From a virus: 56,184 bases of DNA. This document shows positions 10,725-56,184 of this stretch, in pieces; position 1 is the stretch's first letter, and each line of letters starts with the position of its first letter. A program made the translations under genes and the position numbers. The DNA is taken from the IMG/VR virus record IMGVR_UViG_3300025759_000118, positions 1 through 56,184 of that record, one strand, 5' to 3'. The notes under the pieces were generated by a model. That model made no database searches and was not told where the DNA came from. It saw only the letters and a program-made list of their open reading frames with translations.

Positions 10725-13700
10725 ATGCCAAGATATAATTTACCTGATGGAAGATATGTAGATGTTCCAGCAGATGCAGATAGAGATTATTATATAAGGC
10801 TTCAAAATACTCTTGCTCAAGAGTACCCCGATAACTTTACCCAATACCAAGAACCTACCGAAACTACTCTAGGCGGAAATGTCTTAGAGGTAGCTAAAGG
10901 TATACCTAGAGGATTAGGACAAGGTCTTTTATCAGGTTTAGAGGGTGTAGTAAATATATTTGATGTTGGCAATGACTCTGCAATAGGAGATTCATTAAGA
11001 AATGCTCAAGACTTTATTGGAGAGCTTGAAGGCTTAAAACCAGCAAAAGGATATGAAGATAAGTTTAGTACACAGTTTGGGCAAGGTTTAGGTTCTTTTG
11101 CTTCTTTTTTAATTCCGGGTACTGCTGTTGGAAAACTTACAGGTCTTTCAGGCAAAGCTTCACAATTACAAAGGCTTGCAAAAACTCAAGGTGGTACACA
11201 GCTTACAAAAACTCTTAAAGAATTAGAAGAAGTTTCTACTAGATTAAATAGAGCAAGAAGAAATGCAACATTAGGATTTGCAATACCAACTGGTATATCT
11301 GAGCAAGGCAGTAGAATTGAAAGAGCAGAACTAGAAGGTGAAAGTGTAAATCCAACACAAGAAATATTTTCAGAAATATTTGGTGGTGCAGTAGGTGCTA
11401 CTGAAATATTTGCACCTACTAGATTATTAAAAAGCTTAACTAAATCTGATGCAGAAAAATTAAATGTTGTTGATAGATTGAAGTCTGCTGCTGCAACTGG
11501 TGGTGTAGAAGGTTTACAAGAAGGTGTTGCTGAAGTTATGCAAGATGCAATAGCTGCAAATATGTATAACGAAAATTTAAAAATAGGAGAATCATTCTTA
11601 GATAGTGCAATGACAGGTGGTGCTGTTGGTGCTACTGCTGACTTAGTTCTTCGTGGGTTTATGGGCAAAAATAAAATAGGTCAATCTATAGATATTGAAC
11701 AAGAATTAGACTCTAGAGAAGTAATGGAAGGTGCTAGAGAAAAAGAAAGAGAGACAACAAAAGATATTAATTTTGAAACTACCCCTATAGTAGAAGATAC
11801 ACCGCCTGTTGCTGAAGAAATATTAGAAGATACAACCTCAGAACCTAAACAAGACTTACCTGTATTAGAAGAAGTACAAGTTGTACAAAATGAGGATGGT
11901 TCTTCTTCAGTTGTAGGTGTTGATAGTGGAATTATTTACGAGACTTCAAGAGTTTTGATACCAAAGGTGCAGATAGAAAATAGACCCCCACCACCTGAAG
12001 AAGTTGATGTTCTTGGTTCTTTAGAAGAAGCTTCAAAAAAAGCTTTAGAAGTACAGCAAACTTTAAGAACTAATTACATAAATAATATTGCAGAACAAAT
12101 TGCAGGCATAAATGGATTTTCAGAAAGTGGCACTATGAAATGGTTGCTACGACTTTTATATAATCCTCAAAGAAATATATTAGATGCAAGAAGAGTAGCA
12201 CTTCTTGATTCTGTAGTAAGTGGTGAAAGAAGAAGGCAGATAAAAGATTTTGAAAGAATACAAGAGTTAGAAAAATCTGTTAATACTTTAGAGTTAATAG
12301 ATGCTTTAACTAGAGGTGATGGAAACTTAGAAGCTAGGCAAAAATTAGAATCAGAAATTAATCAATTAAAACCTGTTTATAAATTAGATGAGATACCTGC
12401 AGAATATCAAGATAAAAAGAAATCTAAGGCACAGCTTAAGAAAGAACTTACAAGAGAGTTTGGTGCAGAAAAAGCTAATGAGCTTATAAAAAAATATGAA
12501 AACGGAGAAATAGTATCTCCTTTACAAGAAGCATTAATGTCTGAAGAAAATTCTAGTTTATTAAATGACTTTCAAACAAGAGCAGAAAAGAAAGGTTTTG
12601 GGAAAAAAAGTTTCTACACAATAGACGAAGTAAAAAGAATTTTAAAACCTGCAGACTTTAATCAGTTGATGAGAGATAGAGCAAATATTATTTTTGAATT
12701 AGATGCACAATATGGTTTGTTAAATGAAGTAGGCAGAAGAGAAGATAATACTATCGATGTATCGCCAGCAGCGTTTAAAAAAATATTAGCTGCTAAAAAT
12801 ATTGAAGGAAATATTACTGGTCCAGAGTTTGAGTTTATTAGAAAAACTATAACAGGCGAAGCTAAGTTTTCTAAAATGAACTTGGGTCAAAAAGAAATGT
12901 TGATGACTAGACTAGGTGCTTTACCTAGATTTGATACTCCAACTGCTTTACCTGATTTAACTCCTAGACAATATACAGAGCAACAACTAAATGCTTTTGC
13001 AAATCAATATCAAAATAGTGCTATTACTGATAGAGAGATACAAGCTTACTTTGATTCTCAAAATTTAATTAATACTAAAACACAAAGAGACAAGTTTAAA
13101 AAAGATTTATTATTTAGTCAGCGTGCTATAAAAAAAGGCAATCGAGTTCTTGGCAATCCTAATTACAAACTAGACCAAGCTAAAAATGCTACGCCTGATA
13201 ATGAAACTCAGAGTGAATACATAGAAAGATTAGAGAAAACACAACTTACTCCTGAAGAAGTTGATAAGTTAGTCTTTGGTCCACCTAAGCCTGCATTAGC
13301 TTTGCCACCGCCTATTACTTTAGAAAGCTATGATACTTTAGCAAAAGCTTTAGACCGAAGATTAAAGAAACTAGGTCTTAGTAAAGATGTCAGGATTAAG
13401 ATTACCGATTATTACAAGGGTATGCAAAATGCTGTTAGAGATAATAATGGTAATGTTATCGGTTTTAAAGAAGGTACTGAAAAACCAGATGCTGAATACA
13501 ATAAAGCACATAAAATAATGCTGTTTTATATGGCACAGATAAATCCCGGTGGGATGCCTTTTGGCGGGATGCCTGCTCTAGAAGAAAAGATGGTAGAAGA
13601 TTTAAACCATGAAGTCATTCATGCTATGAGGAATTTAGGTTTATTTACAGAAGGAGAGTATCAACAATTAGTTAAAGAAGCCAAAGCAGCTTTACCTCAA

Positions 13701-16700
13701 AATGTTAAAGATTCAATAAAGTCAAACTATGTTGATGACCTTAAGCTGCCACCTTATGCAGTTGATGAAGAATTAGTTGCAGAGTTTTTTAGAGTTTATA
13801 CAAAAGACCCAAGCAGTTTAAATCGTACACAAAGAACTAGAGTACAAAGATTTTTTGATTTTATAAGAGAGATGTTTAATGGCATTTATATTTCTGACTT
13901 CAGAAATCCTTACAAAATTTTAGAAGATATAGAAGCTGGTGTTATAGGTAGAAGAGATAGAAATAAAATTAGGTCAGCTAATGACTCTATGATACTGACT
14001 AATCAACTAGTAGGTGCTGGTGCTAGTTTAAATACTCCTCAAGCTACTGGAGATACTGATGGTGAAAGAGAACAGCCTATTAAAGTAGCATTGAAAGATG
14101 TTATTGAAGAACCTAAAGCTTTTAAATTAGATAGAGATAATTCTTCAGGTCATGTAGCAGATTATGTGCCTCCACAGTATGGTCCATCTGCAGATAATTT
14201 AAATGAAGATACTACTAATAAAGAATTTTACCAAGGATTACTTGGTCAGTATGGAACATTTGGTGTAAGCGGAAATCTTTATGACCCAAATGAATTTCAA
14301 ATTTTTTCTTCTTATAGAAATAGGTTTAGTCAAATAAATAAATATGTAGAAGAAAATGGGATGGAGTCTTTGGTAAACCCACAGACTGATGAAGCTATAT
14401 ACATTAAAGATAGCTTACAACTTTTAGCAGAAGAGCAACAACTTTTTCAAGCATTGCAAGAAGCACAAGGTAATCCTAATGCTCGTATAACTGTGTATCA
14501 AGCTGCACCACAAAGAGATTTGCGAGAAGGAGACTTAGTGACTCCTCTTAGAACAGAAGCTATGCAATTAGTAAAAGAGTCACAAATAACAAGAAATGAA
14601 ATTAGAGAAGCAGAAAGAGAAAGATTAAGACAACAAGATATTGAAAGAACAGGTGCTATAGATTTAAACGCTGAAAGACAAAGAAACCAAGTAGACGAAC
14701 TTTTTGCAATCGAAATACAAGGCGGACCTATTCCTGAAGCAACTCCATCAAAGCTACATGAATATACTATAAGAGCAAGAGAACTTCGTTGGGATGGTAA
14801 TGGAGGCTGGGGTAGATGGGGATATTTCCCTGAAAAAATAGTAGACCTGCCGACATTCAATAGAAAAGTTAGTCCACAAAAATCTGTAGACTTTAAAGAT
14901 AAGGGTGGACTCAATGAAAAAATAGAAGCTACTGTTGATTTAAATGGAGTTAGTACAGATATTGTTTTAAGTAAGACTGGTCAATCAACTGAAACTAATC
15001 CTTCTTTTGCAGCAGACCTTATCTTTGATAGAACATATGAGTTATATGAAGTATATGCCAAGCCTAGTAATGAAATAAGAGATATTCTTTTTTCTAATCC
15101 TGTGCATAACGCACTACTTGGTTTTAAACAATTTGGTTTCTTCAATGAAAAGCTAGGAGAAAGACTTACATTTAATTACAACACTCCATTAGTATTAGTA
15201 GCTAAAGAGATAAACGACTCTCTCAATATATCTCCTGATGACCCTGCTTATCTTAGACCTTCGCCACCAGCCGATTTAGTTGGTGGAGTTTCAATAGGTA
15301 GAGATGAAGATGGAAACATAACTCATTTAGAAAATATTTTTATAGACCAAAATCAACAAGGCAATGGGATAGCAAAAGCTATTCTTGAAACTATTATGTC
15401 TACTAATCCTAATATAGTAGATGGCAAAGAAAAACTTAACATAATAAACATAACACCTTCTGCATTAGACTTTTGGCAAAACTTAGGAACTGGTTTTATT
15501 GCAGATAAATATGGAGATATAGAACTTACTAGCGGTAGATTAGGTTTTTCAGATGTTGTTTATTCTAAACCAACTGCAGAGTTAGACTCAGCTAAAGAAG
15601 AAACCTTGGCTCAAGAGCAAGCAAAAATAAAAGAAGCTAAAGATTTTATACAAAAAGAAAACGAACAAACTTATTCAGAAGCTGTGCCTAGGTTTAATAA
15701 TAAGGCAAGTGATTTAGCACAAAAAGTTGCATATGAAATAGAACAAGAAAATGATGAAAGCTATAAAGACTTACCTACTTTTAGAATAGATAAACAACCT
15801 GTACCTAAAGAACATGAAAAAATAGTTGATGATGCTTTAGGACAAATAGAAGATGCACCTTTATCTTTTTGGGAAAGAGTATCTGAAGGAACTGTTTTTG
15901 GAAATCCAAGTAGATGGCTTACATCTTTGAGAGCAGCAATCATTGATAAGTACAACAAAGAACTACAAGGTATTAAAAAGAATGTTGCAGCTAATCCAGA
16001 TTTAGAAAACATAGAAAGGTTTGCAGAAACTGGTGCATATCAAGCTATGTTGTGGACAGATAAAGCTAAAGGTATTTTTGCATCTGTAATTAAAGATGGC
16101 TTCATGACTATGAAGAATGGGTTAGCTTCTGTCGAAATAGATGGAAGATTAAATTTTATAAATGCTTTTGGAAGATTATATGACCTAGCACAGAAAGAAA
16201 GCATAGATGCTGAAAAACTTTTTGGTACTTATGGAGTAGGTATTAGAAGTAAAACTATCTTAGATAAGAATCAGTACGATGAGAATGGCAAATTAGTTAA
16301 AGGACAACCAATACCTTTACAAGTTAATAGAGAAGATGGAGAGATAGACTTAGATGCAACTGTAGCTAAAATTGAACAAGCTCTAGCTATAGGAAATGAA
16401 TACAAAGAAGTTAAAGAAGCTTGGGATATTTTTACAGAGATAAATGCAAAGACTATACAGTTTGGTATAGATACTGGAATGATTTCTGATTTAGCACCAA
16501 TACCTGAAATAAGAAAAGCTTTATTAGACAATGGTATTGAGTCAGCAAAAGATGCTTCGGATGCTAAGTTATTATTACTTGCTGAACAGTTTAATAGTGT
16601 TAAAGGACTACAACCTGAAAATATTATTGAGACTAGGTCTACTGCACAGATATGGAAGGATGATGCTTCTTATTATCCTTTTTATAGAGCCATGGTTAAT

Positions 16701-18671
16701 GAAGCTGAAAGCAAAGTTAATGCACCTAATATAGGTGGCGGAATACTAGGTGGTAATCCTTTAGCCATACCTATGAGAGGTAAGGAAGAAGCTGTTAATG
16801 TTAGACCTATTGAAGCTATTCTAAGAAATCAACTAGCAATTCTTACTGCTGGAATGAGAAACGATGCTGCACAAAAGCTTATGAGAAACCATCTCCTATC
16901 AAGAGTAGATAATGCTGATGGAGATTTAGAATTAGGTGCAAGAGAAGTGCCATCTGATAAAGCACAAGGCATAGATATTATTCCAGTATTTGTAGATGGT
17001 AGAAAAAAATTCTTTCAAGTGGCTGACCCATATTACTTTGAGGGTTTAAGAACACTTGGTATACAAGATGACTTAGGAGTTATATCTACTTTCCTAGGTA
17101 TGCCTGCAACCTTACTTAGAGAGACAGTCACAAGAGACCCCGGATTTATACTTATCAATATGTTGAGAGATACAATGTCAGCTTCTGTGACAAGTGGTTC
17201 TCGCATAACACCTGTCATAGATACCTTTAGAAATTTTCAACTATTTGGTGCTACGGATTTAAGAGAGCTAGAAAGATTTGGTGTTCTTGGAGGATATGAT
17301 TATTCAGCAGACTCTGTAGATGCAGTTAGATTTTTTGATAAGAAAGTAAAAGAAGCTGGCTATGGAGAGAATGGTAGCCTTAATCCTAAAGATGCCATGA
17401 TAAAAGTATGGGATTATTTGGGCAGAAAAACTTACGAGTCAGATGGTGCAACTAGATTAGGTGTCTATAAAAAAGTTTTAGAAGCTACTGGCAGTCACAC
17501 CGAAGCGGCTTTCCAAGCATCAGAAATAATTAACTTCTCAAGAAGAGGTGGGCATCCAATCATGTCTATCATTACAACAGCTATTCCATTTTTAAATGCA
17601 AGAATACAAGGACTAGATGTACTGTACAGAAGTATGACTGGTAAATATTCTGCAGGCAGCCCGGGAGCTGCTGTCACCTCAGATAACCAAATTCGGAATA
17701 ATATCATCAAAGGATTTGCATTTAGAGGTGGATTACTTGCGATGGCTACACTACTTTATTATGCAATGGTTAGTGATAAGGATGAGTACAAAGCAAGAAG
17801 AAGAGAAGAGAGAGATGACAACTGGTTTATCTTTGCATCTGAAGGACTCCCACCTTTGAAAATACCAGTACCTTTTGAAGTAGGAGTTTTATTTAAAACT
17901 TTACCTGAAAGAATAGCGGATGTTTTAATTGGTCAATCAAGCTTAGAAGATTTAAGCAGAACATCTTCAAGGGCATTGACTCAAACATTCATGGTAGACA
18001 TCTTTGGCTTCCAAGCTATCAAACCTTTCTATGAAGCATACATAAATAATAGAAGTGGCTTTACTGGTAATCGTGTTGTACCTGATTACATAGAAAGAAG
18101 CTTAGAACCTAGACTACAAGTCACACCTCAAACAAATGAATTCATAAGATTAGTAGGGCAAGGATTAAACATCTCCCCTATGAAACTTGAATATGCCTTG
18201 AGTGGATATGGCGGAACTATAGGTACTTACATTCTGAGCCTCATAGATGCGGTCACAAGAGGCGTGACTGGTAAAGACATAGTGACCCCTACGATAGATA
18301 GATTGCCTCTCCTGAAGCGTATATTTGCCTCTGAGGTAGGTGCTGGTGTTCAGCAACAATTCTATGAACTAAGAGAGGAAAGCAATAGAGCCATTGCAAC
18401 TATCAATGAATTGAAAGAAAGAGGTATGTACAAAGAAGTCCAAACATATCGAGCCAACAATGAAGGCTTGATAGAAACCAGACCTCAAGTGCTGGCTATC
18501 GATAGGTATATGAAAAGATACAGAGATAGAAGAGATGCAATCAGAAGAGATGAGACTATCTCAGATGAAGTAAAAAAAGAATTGCTTAAGCAACTTGACC
18601 TTTCTAGAAATGCAAGACTATCTAAAGTACCCTATCTTCGTACCAAAATAGAAACTTTCATAAATCAATAA
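10725..18671 (+). CDS. Giant polyvalent internal virion protein (zincin, ART-like and GNAT-like domains)
   Basis: At 2648 residues this is the largest gene. N-terminal Gly-rich amphipathic segments (about 45-240) precede long helical regions. A zinc-protease motif HEVIH lies at 962-966, with a possible third ligand in EELVAEFF about 50 residues on. An ADP-ribosyltransferase-like segment follows near 1255-1370 (ITVYQAAP, later WDGNGGWGRWGY). It has Gln where the catalytic Arg usually is. A GNAT-like segment is near 1520-1620 (IDQNQQGNGIAKAIL). The C-terminal third (LRETVTRDPGFILINMLRD and an 18-residue hydrophobic stretch near 2330) resembles domains at the ends of phage polyvalent proteins. 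Such proteins are packed in the virion and injected with the DNA. Domain calls are by motif only. Confidence 0.65.
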   Translation: MPRYNLPDGRYVDVPADADRDYYIRLQNTLAQEYPDNFTQYQEPTETTLGGNVLEVAKGIPRGLGQGLLSGLEGVVNIFDVGNDSAIGDSLRNAQDFIGELEGLKPAKGYEDKFSTQFGQGLGSFASFLIPGTAVGKLTGLSGKASQLQRLAKTQGGTQLTKTLKELEEVSTRLNRARRNATLGFAIPTGISEQGSRIERAELEGESVNPTQEIFSEIFGGAVGATEIFAPTRLLKSLTKSDAEKLNVVDRLKSAAATGGVEGLQEGVAEVMQDAIAANMYNENLKIGESFLDSAMTGGAVGATADLVLRGFMGKNKIGQSIDIEQELDSREVMEGAREKERETTKDINFETTPIVEDTPPVAEEILEDTTSEPKQDLPVLEEVQVVQNEDGSSSVVGVDSGIIYETSRVLIPKVQIENRPPPPEEVDVLGSLEEASKKALEVQQTLRTNYINNIAEQIAGINGFSESGTMKWLLRLLYNPQRNILDARRVALLDSVVSGERRRQIKDFERIQELEKSVNTLELIDALTRGDGNLEARQKLESEINQLKPVYKLDEIPAEYQDKKKSKAQLKKELTREFGAEKANELIKKYENGEIVSPLQEALMSEENSSLLNDFQTRAEKKGFGKKSFYTIDEVKRILKPADFNQLMRDRANIIFELDAQYGLLNEVGRREDNTIDVSPAAFKKILAAKNIEGNITGPEFEFIRKTITGEAKFSKMNLGQKEMLMTRLGALPRFDTPTALPDLTPRQYTEQQLNAFANQYQNSAITDREIQAYFDSQNLINTKTQRDKFKKDLLFSQRAIKKGNRVLGNPNYKLDQAKNATPDNETQSEYIERLEKTQLTPEEVDKLVFGPPKPALALPPPITLESYDTLAKALDRRLKKLGLSKDVRIKITDYYKGMQNAVRDNNGNVIGFKEGTEKPDAEYNKAHKIMLFYMAQINPGGMPFGGMPALEEKMVEDLNHEVIHAMRNLGLFTEGEYQQLVKEAKAALPQNVKDSIKSNYVDDLKLPPYAVDEELVAEFFRVYTKDPSSLNRTQRTRVQRFFDFIREMFNGIYISDFRNPYKILEDIEAGVIGRRDRNKIRSANDSMILTNQLVGAGASLNTPQATGDTDGEREQPIKVALKDVIEEPKAFKLDRDNSSGHVADYVPPQYGPSADNLNEDTTNKEFYQGLLGQYGTFGVSGNLYDPNEFQIFSSYRNRFSQINKYVEENGMESLVNPQTDEAIYIKDSLQLLAEEQQLFQALQEAQGNPNARITVYQAAPQRDLREGDLVTPLRTEAMQLVKESQITRNEIREAERERLRQQDIERTGAIDLNAERQRNQVDELFAIEIQGGPIPEATPSKLHEYTIRARELRWDGNGGWGRWGYFPEKIVDLPTFNRKVSPQKSVDFKDKGGLNEKIEATVDLNGVSTDIVLSKTGQSTETNPSFAADLIFDRTYELYEVYAKPSNEIRDILFSNPVHNALLGFKQFGFFNEKLGERLTFNYNTPLVLVAKEINDSLNISPDDPAYLRPSPPADLVGGVSIGRDEDGNITHLENIFIDQNQQGNGIAKAILETIMSTNPNIVDGKEKLNIINITPSALDFWQNLGTGFIADKYGDIELTSGRLGFSDVVYSKPTAELDSAKEETLAQEQAKIKEAKDFIQKENEQTYSEAVPRFNNKASDLAQKVAYEIEQENDESYKDLPTFRIDKQPVPKEHEKIVDDALGQIEDAPLSFWERVSEGTVFGNPSRWLTSLRAAIIDKYNKELQGIKKNVAANPDLENIERFAETGAYQAMLWTDKAKGIFASVIKDGFMTMKNGLASVEIDGRLNFINAFGRLYDLAQKESIDAEKLFGTYGVGIRSKTILDKNQYDENGKLVKGQPIPLQVNREDGEIDLDATVAKIEQALAIGNEYKEVKEAWDIFTEINAKTIQFGIDTGMISDLAPIPEIRKALLDNGIESAKDASDAKLLLLAEQFNSVKGLQPENIIETRSTAQIWKDDASYYPFYRAMVNEAESKVNAPNIGGGILGGNPLAIPMRGKEEAVNVRPIEAILRNQLAILTAGMRNDAAQKLMRNHLLSRVDNADGDLELGAREVPSDKAQGIDIIPVFVDGRKKFFQVADPYYFEGLRTLGIQDDLGVISTFLGMPATLLRETVTRDPGFILINMLRDTMSASVTSGSRITPVIDTFRNFQLFGATDLRELERFGVLGGYDYSADSVDAVRFFDKKVKEAGYGENGSLNPKDAMIKVWDYLGRKTYESDGATRLGVYKKVLEATGSHTEAAFQASEIINFSRRGGHPIMSIITTAIPFLNARIQGLDVLYRSMTGKYSAGSPGAAVTSDNQIRNNIIKGFAFRGGLLAMATLLYYAMVSDKDEYKARRREERDDNWFIFASEGLPPLKIPVPFEVGVLFKTLPERIADVLIGQSSLEDLSRTSSRALTQTFMVDIFGFQAIKPFYEAYINNRSGFTGNRVVPDYIERSLEPRLQVTPQTNEFIRLVGQGLNISPMKLEYALSGYGGTIGTYILSLIDAVTRGVTGKDIVTPTIDRLPLLKRIFASEVGAGVQQQFYELREESNRAIATINELKERGMYKEVQTYRANNEGLIETRPQVLAIDRYMKRYRDRRDAIRRDETISDEVKKELLKQLDLSRNARLSKVPYLRTKIETFINQ

Positions 18672-46548: not shown

Positions 46549-47133
46549 ATGAAATCTTTGTTTGCTGTTTTACCAGAAACATTACCTGATGTTGTAATTA
46601 ACGATATATGTGAAATGGCAAAACTTTTTCCAGAAGAAGAAGGAAAAGTAGGTGCTGCTGGTACAAATATTGAAGGTACAAAAGACAACACTATTAGAAA
46701 CTGTAAAGTTCGTTGGATACAACCAGATACTGACGAAACAAAAAAATTAACTAATCTTTGTACTACTTTATTTCAAGATGCTAATAGAATGTTGTTTGGT
46801 GTAGATTTAACAAAAATATTTAACATTCAATATACTGAGTATCATGGAAATACTAAAGGTTTTTATCATACACATATGGATTCTTATCTTGGAAGTGGAG
46901 AAGTATCAGATAGGAAACTAAGTATGACTATACAACTTTCAGACTCAAATGAATATGAAGGTGGTGATTTTGTATTAAGAGATGAAATACAAAATTTTCC
47001 TGACAAAGAAGAACTAAGAAAAAAAGGAACTGTTTTAGTATTCCCTTCTTTTTTAAATCATAGTGTGCAACCTGTGACCAAGGGTATAAGAAAAAGTCTT
47101 GTGACTTGGATAGAAGGTCCTGCATGGAGATAA
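46549..47133 (+). CDS. 2-oxoglutarate/Fe(II) oxygenase (prolyl-hydroxylase-like)
   Basis: A 194-residue protein with the iron facial triad His109-x-Asp111 (YHTHMDSY) and His171 (LNHSVQPV). The 2-oxoglutarate-binding Arg181-x-Ser183 is in KGIRKSLVTW. Enzymes of this fold hydroxylate Pro, Lys or nucleobases. Marine phages often carry them, target usually unknown. Here it sits in the middle of a run of Lys-rich virion-type proteins, which may be its substrates; that link is my inference. Confidence 0.8.
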   Translation: MKSLFAVLPETLPDVVINDICEMAKLFPEEEGKVGAAGTNIEGTKDNTIRNCKVRWIQPDTDETKKLTNLCTTLFQDANRMLFGVDLTKIFNIQYTEYHGNTKGFYHTHMDSYLGSGEVSDRKLSMTIQLSDSNEYEGGDFVLRDEIQNFPDKEELRKKGTVLVFPSFLNHSVQPVTKGIRKSLVTWIEGPAWR

Positions 47134-49931: not shown

Positions 49932-50362
49932 TGGCAATATCTCAAGCGATGTGTACATCATTTAAAAAAGAACTTTTAGAAGGTGTACATAATTTTAAAA
50001 ACTCAGGCGGTAGTACATTTAACTTAGCTCTATATACAAGTAGTGCTTCTTTAGATGCAGCTACTACTGCATACACTACAAGTAATGAAGTATCTGGTTC
50101 AGGCTATACTGCTAAGGGTGGAGCTTTAACTAGGGTAGACCCAACTACATCTGGTACTACTGCATTTACTGACTTTGCAGATTTAACTTTTAGTAGTTCA
50201 ACTATTACTGCTAATGGTGCATTGATATTTAATGATAGTGCATCAGGCGACCCTGCAGTTGCAGTATTAGCTTTTGGTGGAGATAAGACTTCTACTAATG
50301 GAGACTTCACAATTCAATTTCCAACAGCAGACGCTTCAAACGCAATTATTAGAATAGCTTAA
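49931..50362 (+). CDS. Virion surface protein
   Basis: A 143-residue beta-rich protein (FNLALYTSSASLDAATTAYT, then TFSSSTITANGALIFNDSAS). It is a type often found among tail genes of marine phages and thought to be a small tail or head-fibre component. Overlaps both neighbours by one base (TAATG). Confidence 0.55.
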   Translation: MAISQAMCTSFKKELLEGVHNFKNSGGSTFNLALYTSSASLDAATTAYTTSNEVSGSGYTAKGGALTRVDPTTSGTTAFTDFADLTFSSSTITANGALIFNDSASGDPAVAVLAFGGDKTSTNGDFTIQFPTADASNAIIRIA

Positions 50363-51597
50363 TGGCATTAGTTCTTAACGATAGAGTTAAGGAAACAACA
50401 ACCACAACAGGCACAGGCACAGTAAATTTAGCAGGTGCTGAGACAGGTTTTGAATCCTTTGTAGCAGGTATAGGTAATTCCAATACTTGTTATTATGCTA
50501 TCGTTCATCAAACTGCAGATGAGTTTGAAGTTGGATTAGGAACAGTCACCGATGCAACTCCAGATACTTTAGCGAGAACTACAGTTATTAGTAGTTCTAA
50601 CTCTGACTCCGCAGTAAATTTTTCTGCAGGAACTAAAGATGTATTTTGTACTTTACCTGCAAGTAAATCTTTATTTGCAGATGCTTCTGGTAATGTTGGA
50701 ATCGGTAATTCTAGTCCAGCAGAAAAACTAGATGTAAGTGGAGATATAAAAGCAACAAAAATTGGTGCTGGTATAAGTCCTATAGTGCCTTGTGAGGTCC
50801 TCTCCACAGGTGCTACATCTACAGCATTACGAGTTCTTAAAAGCGGAAGTAATGATTCAACGCAGAACAACTTGTTTTCAGTCACAGAAATTTCAGGTCA
50901 TGGCAGATTAAGTATTCATAATTCTTCGCAAAGCGAATATATAAGACTTGATAGCAATGGTGATTCTTATTTTCTTGGTGGAAAGGTTGGTATTGGTACA
51001 GCTGCTCCAGACACAGAAGGATATACTTTTGCAGAGGATTTAGTTCTTAATGCAGGAGCTTCTGCTGATGATGGTGTAGGTCTTTCACTTCAATCTCAAT
51101 CTAGAAGATATGGTGTTATTGCCTTTGGAGATACTTCAGATACTAATGCAGGAGAACTTTGGTACGACCATAATACTAATAGTTTTAATATAAGAACTAA
51201 TAGTACACAGAGATTTGCATTAGACTCTGGTGGCAATGCAACATTCACAGGAAATGTGACAGCGTATGGAAGTGTTTCAGATGAAAGACTAAAAGAAAAT
51301 ATTAAAGTTATAGAAAACCCTATTGAAAAAATAAAAGATTTAAAAGGTGTCACTTTTACTTACAAAAAAGATGGAGAAAAAAGTACAGGACTTATAGCAC
51401 AAGATTTAGAAAAAGTATTACCAGAGGCAGTATATACCTCCGAAACTATAGCAGACGAAAGAGAAGACGAAGAATCAGAAGAACACTTAGCTATTCGTTA
51501 TGGCAATACAGTAGGTTTATTAGTAGAAGCTATTAAAGAACAACAAGAACAAATAGAAACTCTTACAGCTAAAGTAAAAGAACTAGAGGATAAATAA
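50362..51597 (+). CDS. Tail fibre with C-terminal endosialidase-type chaperone (Peptidase S74)
   Basis: A 411-residue protein. The N-terminal 100 residues form a beta domain, then come repeated 'GNVGIGNSSPAEKLDVSG' and 'GKVGIGTAAPDTEG' units typical of fibre shafts. The last 105 residues are an intramolecular chaperone: SDERLKENIKVIENPIEKI, LKGVTFTYKKDG, GLIAQDLEKVLPEAV and a long coiled coil. These domains trimerise the fibre and then cut themselves off before the Ser of the first motif. Confidence 0.85.
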   Translation: MALVLNDRVKETTTTTGTGTVNLAGAETGFESFVAGIGNSNTCYYAIVHQTADEFEVGLGTVTDATPDTLARTTVISSSNSDSAVNFSAGTKDVFCTLPASKSLFADASGNVGIGNSSPAEKLDVSGDIKATKIGAGISPIVPCEVLSTGATSTALRVLKSGSNDSTQNNLFSVTEISGHGRLSIHNSSQSEYIRLDSNGDSYFLGGKVGIGTAAPDTEGYTFAEDLVLNAGASADDGVGLSLQSQSRRYGVIAFGDTSDTNAGELWYDHNTNSFNIRTNSTQRFALDSGGNATFTGNVTAYGSVSDERLKENIKVIENPIEKIKDLKGVTFTYKKDGEKSTGLIAQDLEKVLPEAVYTSETIADEREDEESEEHLAIRYGNTVGLLVEAIKEQQEQIETLTAKVKELEDK

Positions 51598-52346
51598 TGG
51601 CAATCCCTGCAAGTGGTCAAATAACTATGGGTACAATACAAAGCGAATGGGGTGGTAGTAGTCCTATTAGTTTGAACGAGTATTATTCTGGCAGTCTAGC
51701 TTCTAATAGTACCTCTAGTAGTGTTAGTCCTACTGTAGGTACTCTTACTACTAGTATTTATACTCCGGGTGGAAAAGGTTATGCTGCTTTCACCACATAT
51801 TACAGAGCATCTGGTTTTAGAAATACTAATATACAGTATTCCACTATACTAGTAGGTACAACATTAGGCTCAGGTTCTGCAACATGGACAACTACATCAG
51901 GTATAGACCAAGTAGGAAATGCAGGACAAATACCTTCTTCTGGTGCTATACAAATGAATCATTTTAGAGGAACTAATGGTTCTGCAACATCAAGCAATTT
52001 AGTTTCTTATGGATTCCAAGTTTATCAAAGTAGTGGAAACCCTTCTGGACCTTGGAGTACATCTGTACAAATTTGGATTTCAGGTCATTATGGTACTAAT
52101 GGCTCTGGGAGTAATTGGAGTAATGTTCCTTTTCGTTGGATAGACTCTCCTGCTAAAGGTGGAGTTGCTGCTACTAGATGGTATGGCTCAGATTCTCATT
52201 CAAGTAATGGTAGTAATACAGGTAAGAGTAATATTTCTCATGATACTTTTCCAAATATTGGTGCTTGTACAAGATATATATATAACACTAATATAAGTCC
52301 ATCAGTCTCAATGTCTGGAACATGGACCTTAACTGTACAACGATAG
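51597..52346 (+). CDS. Tail protein, Gly/Ser-rich
   Basis: A 249-residue protein opening IPASGQITMGTIQSEWGG, a start common in small tail-tip proteins of marine phages. The rest is Gly/Ser/Thr/Asn-rich with Trp residues and no charged helices, typical of a beta-structured receptor-facing protein. Overlaps its neighbours. Confidence 0.55.
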   Translation: MAIPASGQITMGTIQSEWGGSSPISLNEYYSGSLASNSTSSSVSPTVGTLTTSIYTPGGKGYAAFTTYYRASGFRNTNIQYSTILVGTTLGSGSATWTTTSGIDQVGNAGQIPSSGAIQMNHFRGTNGSATSSNLVSYGFQVYQSSGNPSGPWSTSVQIWISGHYGTNGSGSNWSNVPFRWIDSPAKGGVAATRWYGSDSHSSNGSNTGKSNISHDTFPNIGACTRYIYNTNISPSVSMSGTWTLTVQR

Positions 52347-53285: not shown

Positions 53286-54137
53286 ATGGCATGGAATTTA
53301 AAGAAAATATATAAATACAGCAGAGATGTATTTGAAGCAGACCATGGAGCAATTCTTGTAGAAGATGACTCTGGTGAAGAAAGATTAGATGTTCTTCAAG
53401 GTATGTATAGGGAATTTGGTTTTCCTTCTAATCTTAAAGCTTTAATTAAGTGGTTTAAAAGTCCAAAAGAAAGAAGAAAGATTTTTATGGGTACTGACTA
53501 TAATGAAGAAAGTTTTGTTAAGGAAGAAGTAGTTTCAAAGTTATCAGATGTAGAATACTTACAATCTTTACCACCAAATACTGTTGGTGGTCATTTAGGA
53601 AACTTATTTAAAAATTGGTCAATAGAAGAATTATACGAAAAAAGATACCTAGAAGTCGAAGAAGATGAAGAATCTTTTCTTAAAGGCAGTTTTGGCACAG
53701 AAATAAGAACTAACATCTCAAGACATTTATTTTTGTGGCACGATATGTTTCATATTTTATTTAGATATGATACTTCTATTTTTGGAGAAGCATTAGTACA
53801 GAAAGTTACTTGTAAAGCTGTACCTAGTTGGGCACCAACTTATGTAGCTTTTATAGTGACACTTAAAGTTGCTTGGCGTACTAAATCATTAATGCCTTTT
53901 AAAGCTTTTAAAGAAGCGGGTAAGTTAGGTGAGGCAGCCGATAAAAAAGATTTAATTTGTCGTAGTCCTTTATCTTTATTAGAAAGAGATATAGAAGAAG
54001 TAAGAGAAGAATTTGATATAGGTGTTCCTATTGAATTTTTAAAATGGTCAAAAAAACACCCAGACATTTTTAGAGGCGATTGCATACACCCAGAATATGA
54101 ACAGGATTTAATATGGCACAAAGCAGAATCAATTTAA
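53286..54137 (+). CDS. coq4: COQ4-like ubiquinone biosynthesis protein
   Basis: A 283-residue protein with a GGAGGTAATAAAT site. The COQ4 signature is complete: LPPNTVGGHLGNLF near 95-108, then RHLFLWHDMFHILFRYDTSI with the metal motif His152-Asp153-x-x-His156-x11-Glu168. A C-terminal DIEEVREEFDIGVP resembles the usual 'VR--LGI' ending. COQ4 binds a metal and acts in ubiquinone synthesis at the membrane, in removing and replacing the C1 group of the ring. It lies among tail genes, an odd place for a metabolic gene. The first 90 residues are also of the family's style. Confidence 0.75.
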   Translation: MAWNLKKIYKYSRDVFEADHGAILVEDDSGEERLDVLQGMYREFGFPSNLKALIKWFKSPKERRKIFMGTDYNEESFVKEEVVSKLSDVEYLQSLPPNTVGGHLGNLFKNWSIEELYEKRYLEVEEDEESFLKGSFGTEIRTNISRHLFLWHDMFHILFRYDTSIFGEALVQKVTCKAVPSWAPTYVAFIVTLKVAWRTKSLMPFKAFKEAGKLGEAADKKDLICRSPLSLLERDIEEVREEFDIGVPIEFLKWSKKHPDIFRGDCIHPEYEQDLIWHKAESI

Positions 54138-54355
54138 GATGGAACTTTCCTATTGCTCAAGTAGCGATTAAGAAAATAAAATCAGTATATAAAGAAAAAG
54201 GTTTATTAGAATCCATAGCATATGTAATTGCTATAGTAATTGGATTTAAAGTTGTAGTTATCAATGGATTTATTTATTTAATAAATTATTTATTTTTGAC
54301 CGACATTAAATATGGACCTGTTCTCTATTATATTTTTGGAGTTCAATTAATTTAG
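54113..54355 (+). CDS. Small membrane protein, two helices; possible holin
   Basis: An 80-residue protein overlapping the COQ4-like gene. After a basic N-terminus (about 28 residues), two hydrophobic helices follow (SIAYVIAIVIGFKVVVINGF and YLINYLFL…VLYYIFGVQLI). Size and layout suit a class II-type holin, which the window otherwise lacks; alternatively it may tether the COQ4-like protein to the membrane. Both ideas are inference. Confidence 0.45.
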   Translation: MAQSRINLRWNFPIAQVAIKKIKSVYKEKGLLESIAYVIAIVIGFKVVVINGFIYLINYLFLTDIKYGPVLYYIFGVQLI

Positions 54356-55105: not shown

Positions 55106-56184
55106 ATGCCAAGTTATGATAACGATTTAGTATTAACCGAACTAGCTACTGGAGAAGGTAGTGGTACATGGGGTGATACTACTAATGTAAATTTAGAGCT
55201 AATAGGAGAAGCTTTCTCTTATGGCACAGGTGCAACTTTTGGAAGTGATGCTGACCAAACTGTCACAGTAAATCAAGCTTCGCACTTATATAGAAGAATG
55301 TTTATCTTAGTCACTTCTACTCCTTCATTAAGTGCAACAAGAACCTTAACTATAAATCCAACTACGATTTCTAAAATGATGTTAATAAGAAATGGAACAT
55401 CAGGAAATCAATCAATAATAATTAAGCAAGGCTCAGGTGCAACAGTCACTATTCCAAATGGTATGACAAAAATGGTTGTGCTTGATGGAGCAGGTTCTGG
55501 TGCTGCAGTTATAGATTGTTTAGATTATGTAAGCTTATCTTCTAATGCAACTATAGGCGGAGTCACTCCTATTAGTGCAGACAGTACCACAACATTTACT
55601 AATAAAACTTTTGATGCAGATGCAACGGGTAATAGCTTAACTAATGTAGAAGATGCCAATATCAAATCAGGTGCTGCAATAGATGCTGCAAAAATTGCCA
55701 ACGGAAATGTTAGCAACACAGAGTTTCAATATTTAGATGGCGTAACATCTGCTATACAAACTCAACTTAATGCAAAAGGGGATATTACAGGAGTAACTGC
55801 AGGTAGTAATTTAACAGGAGGTGGCACTTCTGGTACTCCAACTTTAGCTCTATCAGCTAATCCAAGTGTCACAACAGTCACCGCATCTAGCACAATTACA
55901 GGACAGATAAGCAATAATAGTTCTTATGGATTTATGTCCTCAATATCAGGCGGTGCAAATCGAGCACCTGATGTTTTAAAACGAGATTACTCAACTCCGC
56001 CAACAGGATTAGGCACAGCAGCTACAGGATATTTTTGGCATCCATTAGCAACAACAGTAAGGTATGGCTACAATGGAACAAGTGTCACAGGAAACTATAT
56101 AACATTGCCTGCAGGCACATGGTATCTAAGAGGCTCGGCTTCTTTAGGAAGGTATGCAAGTGATACTGCAGATACAACTTATAT
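55106..56184 (+). CDS. Tail fibre protein (5' part, runs off window)
   Basis: Begins at ATG 55106 after AGAGGTAAATT and is open to the last base, so at least 359 residues. The start, SYDNDLVLTELATGEGSGTW followed by GDTTNVNLELIGEAF, is a fibre N-terminal domain common in marine podoviruses. A shaft of the kind 'TTFTNKTFDADATGN' and 'EFQYLDGVTSAIQTQLNAKG' follows, and then a beta-rich head domain begins. It is probably the main adsorption fibre; the receptor-binding end is outside the window. Confidence 0.75.
   Translation, partial: MPSYDNDLVLTELATGEGSGTWGDTTNVNLELIGEAFSYGTGATFGSDADQTVTVNQASHLYRRMFILVTSTPSLSATRTLTINPTTISKMMLIRNGTSGNQSIIIKQGSGATVTIPNGMTKMVVLDGAGSGAAVIDCLDYVSLSSNATIGGVTPISADSTTTFTNKTFDADATGNSLTNVEDANIKSGAAIDAAKIANGNVSNTEFQYLDGVTSAIQTQLNAKGDITGVTAGSNLTGGGTSGTPTLALSANPSVTTVTASSTITGQISNNSSYGFMSSISGGANRAPDVLKRDYSTPPTGLGTAATGYFWHPLATTVRYGYNGTSVTGNYITLPAGTWYLRGSASLGRYASDTADTTY

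Follow-up and report, generated by a model that had tools for sequence, protein, structure and literature searches.

Marine phages boost host photosynthesis, nucleotide supply and other pathways, and the Coq4 family takes part in the synthesis of the respiratory lipid ubiquinone in animals and yeast. The locus described here raises the question of what a Coq4-like gene might do for a phage that carries it among its tail genes. The gene is an open frame within a same-strand series of tail genes (Table 1). The virus record that contains it, 56,184 bases long and referred to below as the window, also encodes a terminase, a portal protein, a major head protein, a DNA ejection-like protein, a phrog_3287 virion protein and a DNA primase/helicase. 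A sequence-only reading of this DNA had assigned the gene to Coq4 from a metal motif of the form HDxxH-x11-E, an LPPNTVG box and the C-terminal end of the family, and had placed it among tail genes ahead of a small two-helix protein. All of these features are borne out by the open reading frames and by the Pfam alignment. The same reading had proposed that the gene could sustain respiration through ubiquinone synthesis or, alternatively, that the phage reuses the fold structurally; these two proposals fared differently.

Table 1. Features of the Coq4-like locus, in window coordinates
Feature	Position	Strand	Remarks
Tail fibre protein with S74 chaperone domain	50362..51597	+	
Fibre-like protein (cluster 1)	51597..52346	+	Upstream neighbour in many loci
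C2 protein, 233 aa	52579..53280	+	All-beta cupin/bicupin-like model, no histidines
Coq4-family metalloenzyme-like protein, 283 aa	53286..54137	+	Metal motif H152 D153 H156 E168
LPPNTVG box, residues 95-101	53568..53588	+	T99 and G101 invariant in 19/19 window-clade sequences
Metal motif HDMFHILFRYDTSIFGE, residues 152-168 (H152-D153-x-x-H156-x11-E168)	53739..53789	+	
TM5, 80-aa hydrophobic protein	54113..54355	+	25-base overlap with the end of the Coq4-like gene

The only Pfam family matched by the window protein is Coq4 (PF05019), with a score that passes marginally (E 5.5e-5, 23.0 bits against a cut-off of 22.9) over profile positions 125-218 of 221, so that the C-terminal end is matched as well. 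Its relatives match the same profile clearly, both in the close set (5/5 members, best E 7e-7) and in a wider set (22/22 relatives, best E 6e-21), which removes the doubt left by the marginal score. A profile built from these 22 relatives recovered two Coq4-family entries in the PDB, 3msq (6.9e-16) and 6e12 (6.3e-10); the metal motif lines up in each of them, and the LPxxTxG box does so in 3msq. Structure prediction and comparison with COQ4, which the sequence-only reading had suggested as a check, led to the same family: the AlphaFold2 model (mean pLDDT 87, pTM 0.87) superimposes on 6e12 with Z 18.5 (203 aligned residues, 2.6 A) and on 3msq with Z 16.4 (204 aligned residues, 3.3 A), while the next-best structural match reaches a Z of only 4.2. 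A Foldseek search of the predicted viral structures in BFVD gave no match to the model at E <=0.001.

The close set consists of five loci recovered from IMG/VR by peptide-pattern searches. A degenerate DNA pattern for the metal motif retrieved at least 120 viral stretches, of which at least 119 are Coq4-like by profile; one pattern match that is not a Coq4 (L036) was removed. All IMG/VR counts given here are lower bounds, and some contigs may be redundant. Invariance of the motif across this wider set is uninformative because the DNA pattern itself demands it, but the motif is also present in every relative read through that was found without a motif query and has the region covered, namely the close loci recovered with other peptides and the loci fished with the C2 protein. 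Seven further positions that the search pattern does not demand (T99, G101, R120, N143, H147, E210 and R240) are invariant in 19/19 members of the window clade. Substitution rates (NG86) were dN 0.038 and dS 0.150 between the window gene and L002 (dN/dS about 0.25) and dN 0.017 and dS 0.154 between L003 and L005 (about 0.11); on these sequence comparisons, the Coq4-like gene is under purifying selection.

Terminase similarity and gene order suggest that the phage is a podovirus related to the HTVC023P-type pelagiphages. Its terminase is 59% identical to those of Phage DSL-LC04 and 023Pt_psg01, 57% to that of Pelagibacter phage HTVC027P and 53% to that of HTVC023P, and a SAR11-like host is therefore likely. 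Elsewhere in the window, the structural region holds a 2OG-Fe(II) oxygenase gene (46549-47133; PF13640, 3.1e-14), relatives of which lie near the Coq4-like gene in L017, L022, L030, L048 and L084. A FecR-domain protein (PF04773, 1.6e-9) is encoded at 1040-2188; FecR has been described as a component of pelagiphage curli secretion modules (PMC9599517). A single 2648-aa open frame (10725-18671) lies between the structural genes and a minus-strand region. When the two ends are joined, the frame that runs off the right end (55106-56184) is in phase with the left-end open frame (1-448), which, as read from the coordinates, suggests a circularly permuted record split within a single tail gene.

A tree of 50 sequences, including only five cellular ones, all plasmid-borne, resolved three main clades. 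These carry recognisably different motifs, mostly HDxxHFxNxYDT in clade A, mostly HDxxHxxxRYDT in clade B, to which the window belongs, and RYRDTHD in the T4-type clade, which is closest in the tree to a Cupriavidus plasmid protein. The window clade sits on a long branch, distant from the five plasmid-borne proteins, and the deepest joins, with long branches and thin cellular sampling, have moderate support only. Scans of genome contigs found no close cellular relatives of the Coq4-like protein.

Genomic settings of the gene differ markedly between loci. Among the matches listed, the C2 protein is present in 62/119 loci, mostly in tail clusters, and 33 loci are T4-like: terminase or tail sheath genes were found there, but neither C2 nor fibre. 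In six of the T4-like loci (L014, L018, L027, L028, L033 and L040) the gene has those for a gp17-like terminase large subunit and a gp18-like tail sheath on either side. Again among the matches listed, ribonucleotide reductase genes lie nearby in 3/119 loci, and a further setting, here called the redox setting, comprises 11/119 loci in which the gene adjoins peroxiredoxin or phosphoribosyltransferase genes, some of them also with a glutaredoxin-like protein and a glycosyltransferase. In the L075-type cluster the order is CHASE2, HAD-like, peroxiredoxin, phosphoribosyltransferase, Coq4-like, TM5, glutaredoxin-like and glycosyltransferase-like, and the CHASE2-domain protein (L075:4666-6468, and its relatives) heads the cluster. 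Tail and redox settings are interleaved in the tree within clade B.

Two neighbours recur. The downstream one, TM5, has two hydrophobic stretches in its sequence and no Pfam or PHROG match, and corresponds to the two-helix protein of the sequence-only reading; it is a real open reading frame, and most loci of the clade have a relative of it after the Coq4-like gene. Among the matches listed, a TM5 relative comes directly after the gene in 39 of 51 loci (26 with C2 and 13 without), where the 51 are the provisional clade B motif class with enough downstream sequence; since a few members of this class fall outside clade B in the tree, the actual frequency within the clade is somewhat higher. TM5 also occurs in 8/11 redox-setting loci among the matches listed, and is missing from clade A and T4-type members. 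The upstream neighbour, C2, lies less than 100 bases before the Coq4-like gene on the same strand in 61 of the 62 listed loci that have both. Its model (pLDDT 92) is all-beta and of cupin or bicupin type, with a middling match to YhhW (Z 9.4 over 156 residues). A role for C2 as a cupin enzyme was rejected, as the window C2 is without histidine and so has no usual cupin metal site, and a match to PF04185 (E 0.069) was taken as chance. With C2 as query, the Coq4-like gene came next in 12/14 contigs, most of them already known through the Coq4-like gene.

We favour, with a confidence that falls a little short of even, the reading that this is an auxiliary metabolic gene for a Coq4-fold membrane metalloenzyme that sustains ubiquinone supply and respiration. 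The predicted fold, the putative metal site, purifying selection, the conserved hydrophobic partner and the changes of setting are all consistent with such an enzyme. We infer its metal binding, catalysis, membrane location, expression timing, quinone substrate and benefit. The Coq4-fold protein would act as a metal-dependent enzyme at the inner membrane of the host, where TM5 would probably hold it or feed it. Its position among the tail genes would provide for late expression together with them and would not imply membership of the tail. Most likely it would remove the C1 carboxyl, perhaps with hydroxylation, from a polyprenylated precursor of the 4-hydroxybenzoate type, and ubiquinone supply and respiration would thereby be kept up while progeny are produced. 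This chemistry follows cellular COQ4, for which the protein with the HDxxH-x11-E motif has been reconstituted in vitro as a Zn-dependent C1 decarboxylase (PMC7615680) and the human protein reported as an oxidative decarboxylase that converts carboxyl to hydroxyl in one step (PMC11495197). In SAR11 cells infected by HTVC027P, a phage of the HTVC023P type, genes of oxidative phosphorylation and a gene for a quinone oxidoreductase are upregulated (PMC12753301); such a respiratory effect needs no Coq4-like gene, as HTVC027P is without a PF05019 match.

The ubiquinone part of the proposal is the less secure. The fold, conservation, purifying selection and changes of setting support membership of the Coq4 family, the residues of the metal site and a role in metabolism rather than in structure, whereas ubiquinone synthesis specifically is less well supported, the same motif being present in two cyanobacterial proteins (Alr8543, and that of 3msq) and in sphingomonad plasmid genes. 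The motif is thus common to family members not tied to ubiquinone: cyanobacteria produce plastoquinone, not ubiquinone, and the sphingomonad plasmid members sit among P450 and acyl-CoA dehydrogenase genes. A Pfam scan of the window proteins, covering part of the open reading frames, revealed no ubiquinone genes near the Coq4-like gene.

The alternative that survives best, less probable than the ubiquinone reading and yet a serious possibility, is that the protein is a Coq4-fold metalloenzyme or lipid-binding protein acting on another membrane lipid (a fatty acid, an isoprenoid or a phage-induced lipid) and remodelling the membrane during infection. Its closest solved structure, Alr8543 (6e12), was crystallised with oleic acid and Mg, and the cellular members of the family include proteins from catabolic plasmid clusters and from cyanobacteria. 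A fatty-acid substrate could also be indicated by an exchange at the locus itself. In two of the 14 C2 contigs (L147 and L148) the Coq4-like gene was not found after C2; in L148 the frame directly after C2 (L148:3681-4436) encodes a membrane fatty-acid desaturase (PF00487, E 2.1e-9) in the slot otherwise held by the Coq4-like gene, and in L147, which has the same C2 match, the contig ends before the next gene would show. The L148 desaturase is followed by an 89-aa protein that by eye resembles the cluster-8 family, which in clade A loci is encoded downstream of the Coq4-like gene. Against this, L147 and L148, with the same match scores, are probably one lineage, so that the desaturase swap counts once, the crystal ligand may be a purification guest, and in the literature searched the only published biochemical activity is the quinone reaction. 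Desaturases of T4-like phages (L028, L095 and L105) were rejected as further exchanges, being distant (25%) and, in L028, several genes away. A related proposal is that marine phages carry a mobile lipid-chemistry cassette, in which the Coq4-fold enzyme and TM5, often placed after C2 and exchangeable for a desaturase, would make an altered quinone or membrane lipid rather than top up ubiquinone; we consider this rather unlikely.

Reuse of the Coq4 fold as a tail or virion protein, or as a tail-assembly factor, was the other option in the sequence-only reading and is suggested by the location of the window gene among tail genes, right after C2, and by the presence of C2 in 62/119 loci among the matches listed. 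It has become improbable. The protein of L013, from a C2 setting in a T4-like phage, is 77-79% identical to those of L015, L029 and L075 in the redox setting; tail-gene probes had no match within reach of any of the 11 redox-setting loci among the matches listed, and one protein there is 79% identical to a tail-setting one. Since such similar proteins occur both in a tail cluster and in a redox cluster, a tail-structural role is argued against, as movement between settings would be unexpected for a protein bound to tail structure and expected for an enzyme. The invariance of the putative catalytic residues and the T4-like phages that carry the gene between terminase and sheath weigh in the same direction. 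Least probable of all is a control of infection without lipid chemistry, through lysis timing with TM5 as a holin-like protein or through a superinfection block at the membrane: it fits a small hydrophobic TM5 that overlaps the Coq4-like gene, but TM5 is found downstream in the redox setting too, it is absent from clade A and T4-type members, and no lysis family was matched in Pfam or PHROG.

Within the searches made, this is an auxiliary metabolic gene of a known enzyme family that had gone unreported in phages, together with a conserved partner gene. The sequence-only reading had set Coq4 apart from the usual auxiliary genes of phages. In 50,697 phage records, tblastn with the window protein, a clade A member, a T4-type member and a clade B segment found nothing convincing, no PHROG family matches the protein, and a search of the open-licence literature on Coq4 with phage and viral terms found no report. 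A survey of 80 uncultured HTVC023P-type genomes listed 54 auxiliary gene families, and neither ubiquinone nor coq occurs in its main text (PMC9599517). Relatives of the gene are present in many uncultured marine phages, often beside the same small membrane protein, so that phages may routinely adjust the respiratory or membrane lipids of their hosts, a so far unnoticed handle of which a Coq4-type form is not described in the literature we found. The phage family also offers many diverged natural variants for testing Coq4 function, since recent papers disagree on whether it is decarboxylation by itself or decarboxylation coupled to hydroxylation in one step, and these variants could further test whether the family functions outside ubiquinone.

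Compared with known systems, the phage protein shares the HDxxH-x11-E motif and the C-terminal profile region with human and ancestral COQ4 (PF05019) of the ubiquinone metabolon, but differs in its very low sequence similarity, its extra N- and C-terminal parts, its location in a phage genome with a small hydrophobic protein encoded downstream, and an enzyme activity that is putative. The cyanobacterial proteins Alr8543 (6e12) and Npun02000094 (3msq) have the fold in common with it over about 200 residues and bear the same metal motif; they are 16% identical to it, are cyanobacterial rather than phage proteins, and have entry titles that give no function. The pelagiphages HTVC023P, HTVC027P and 023Pt_psg01 resemble the window in gene order, in terminase (53-59% identical) and in the presence of metabolic genes among tail genes, and are unlike it in having no PF05019 match; their corresponding tail region encodes 2OG-Fe(II) oxygenases, together with a putative ferrochelatase in the case of HTVC023P and 023Pt_psg01. 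The auxiliary metabolic genes of marine phages, such as fatty-acid desaturases and ubiG, the latter reported by a Baltic study (PMC9301287), likewise place a host-type enzyme in a phage, and a desaturase is able to take the very slot of the Coq4-like gene.
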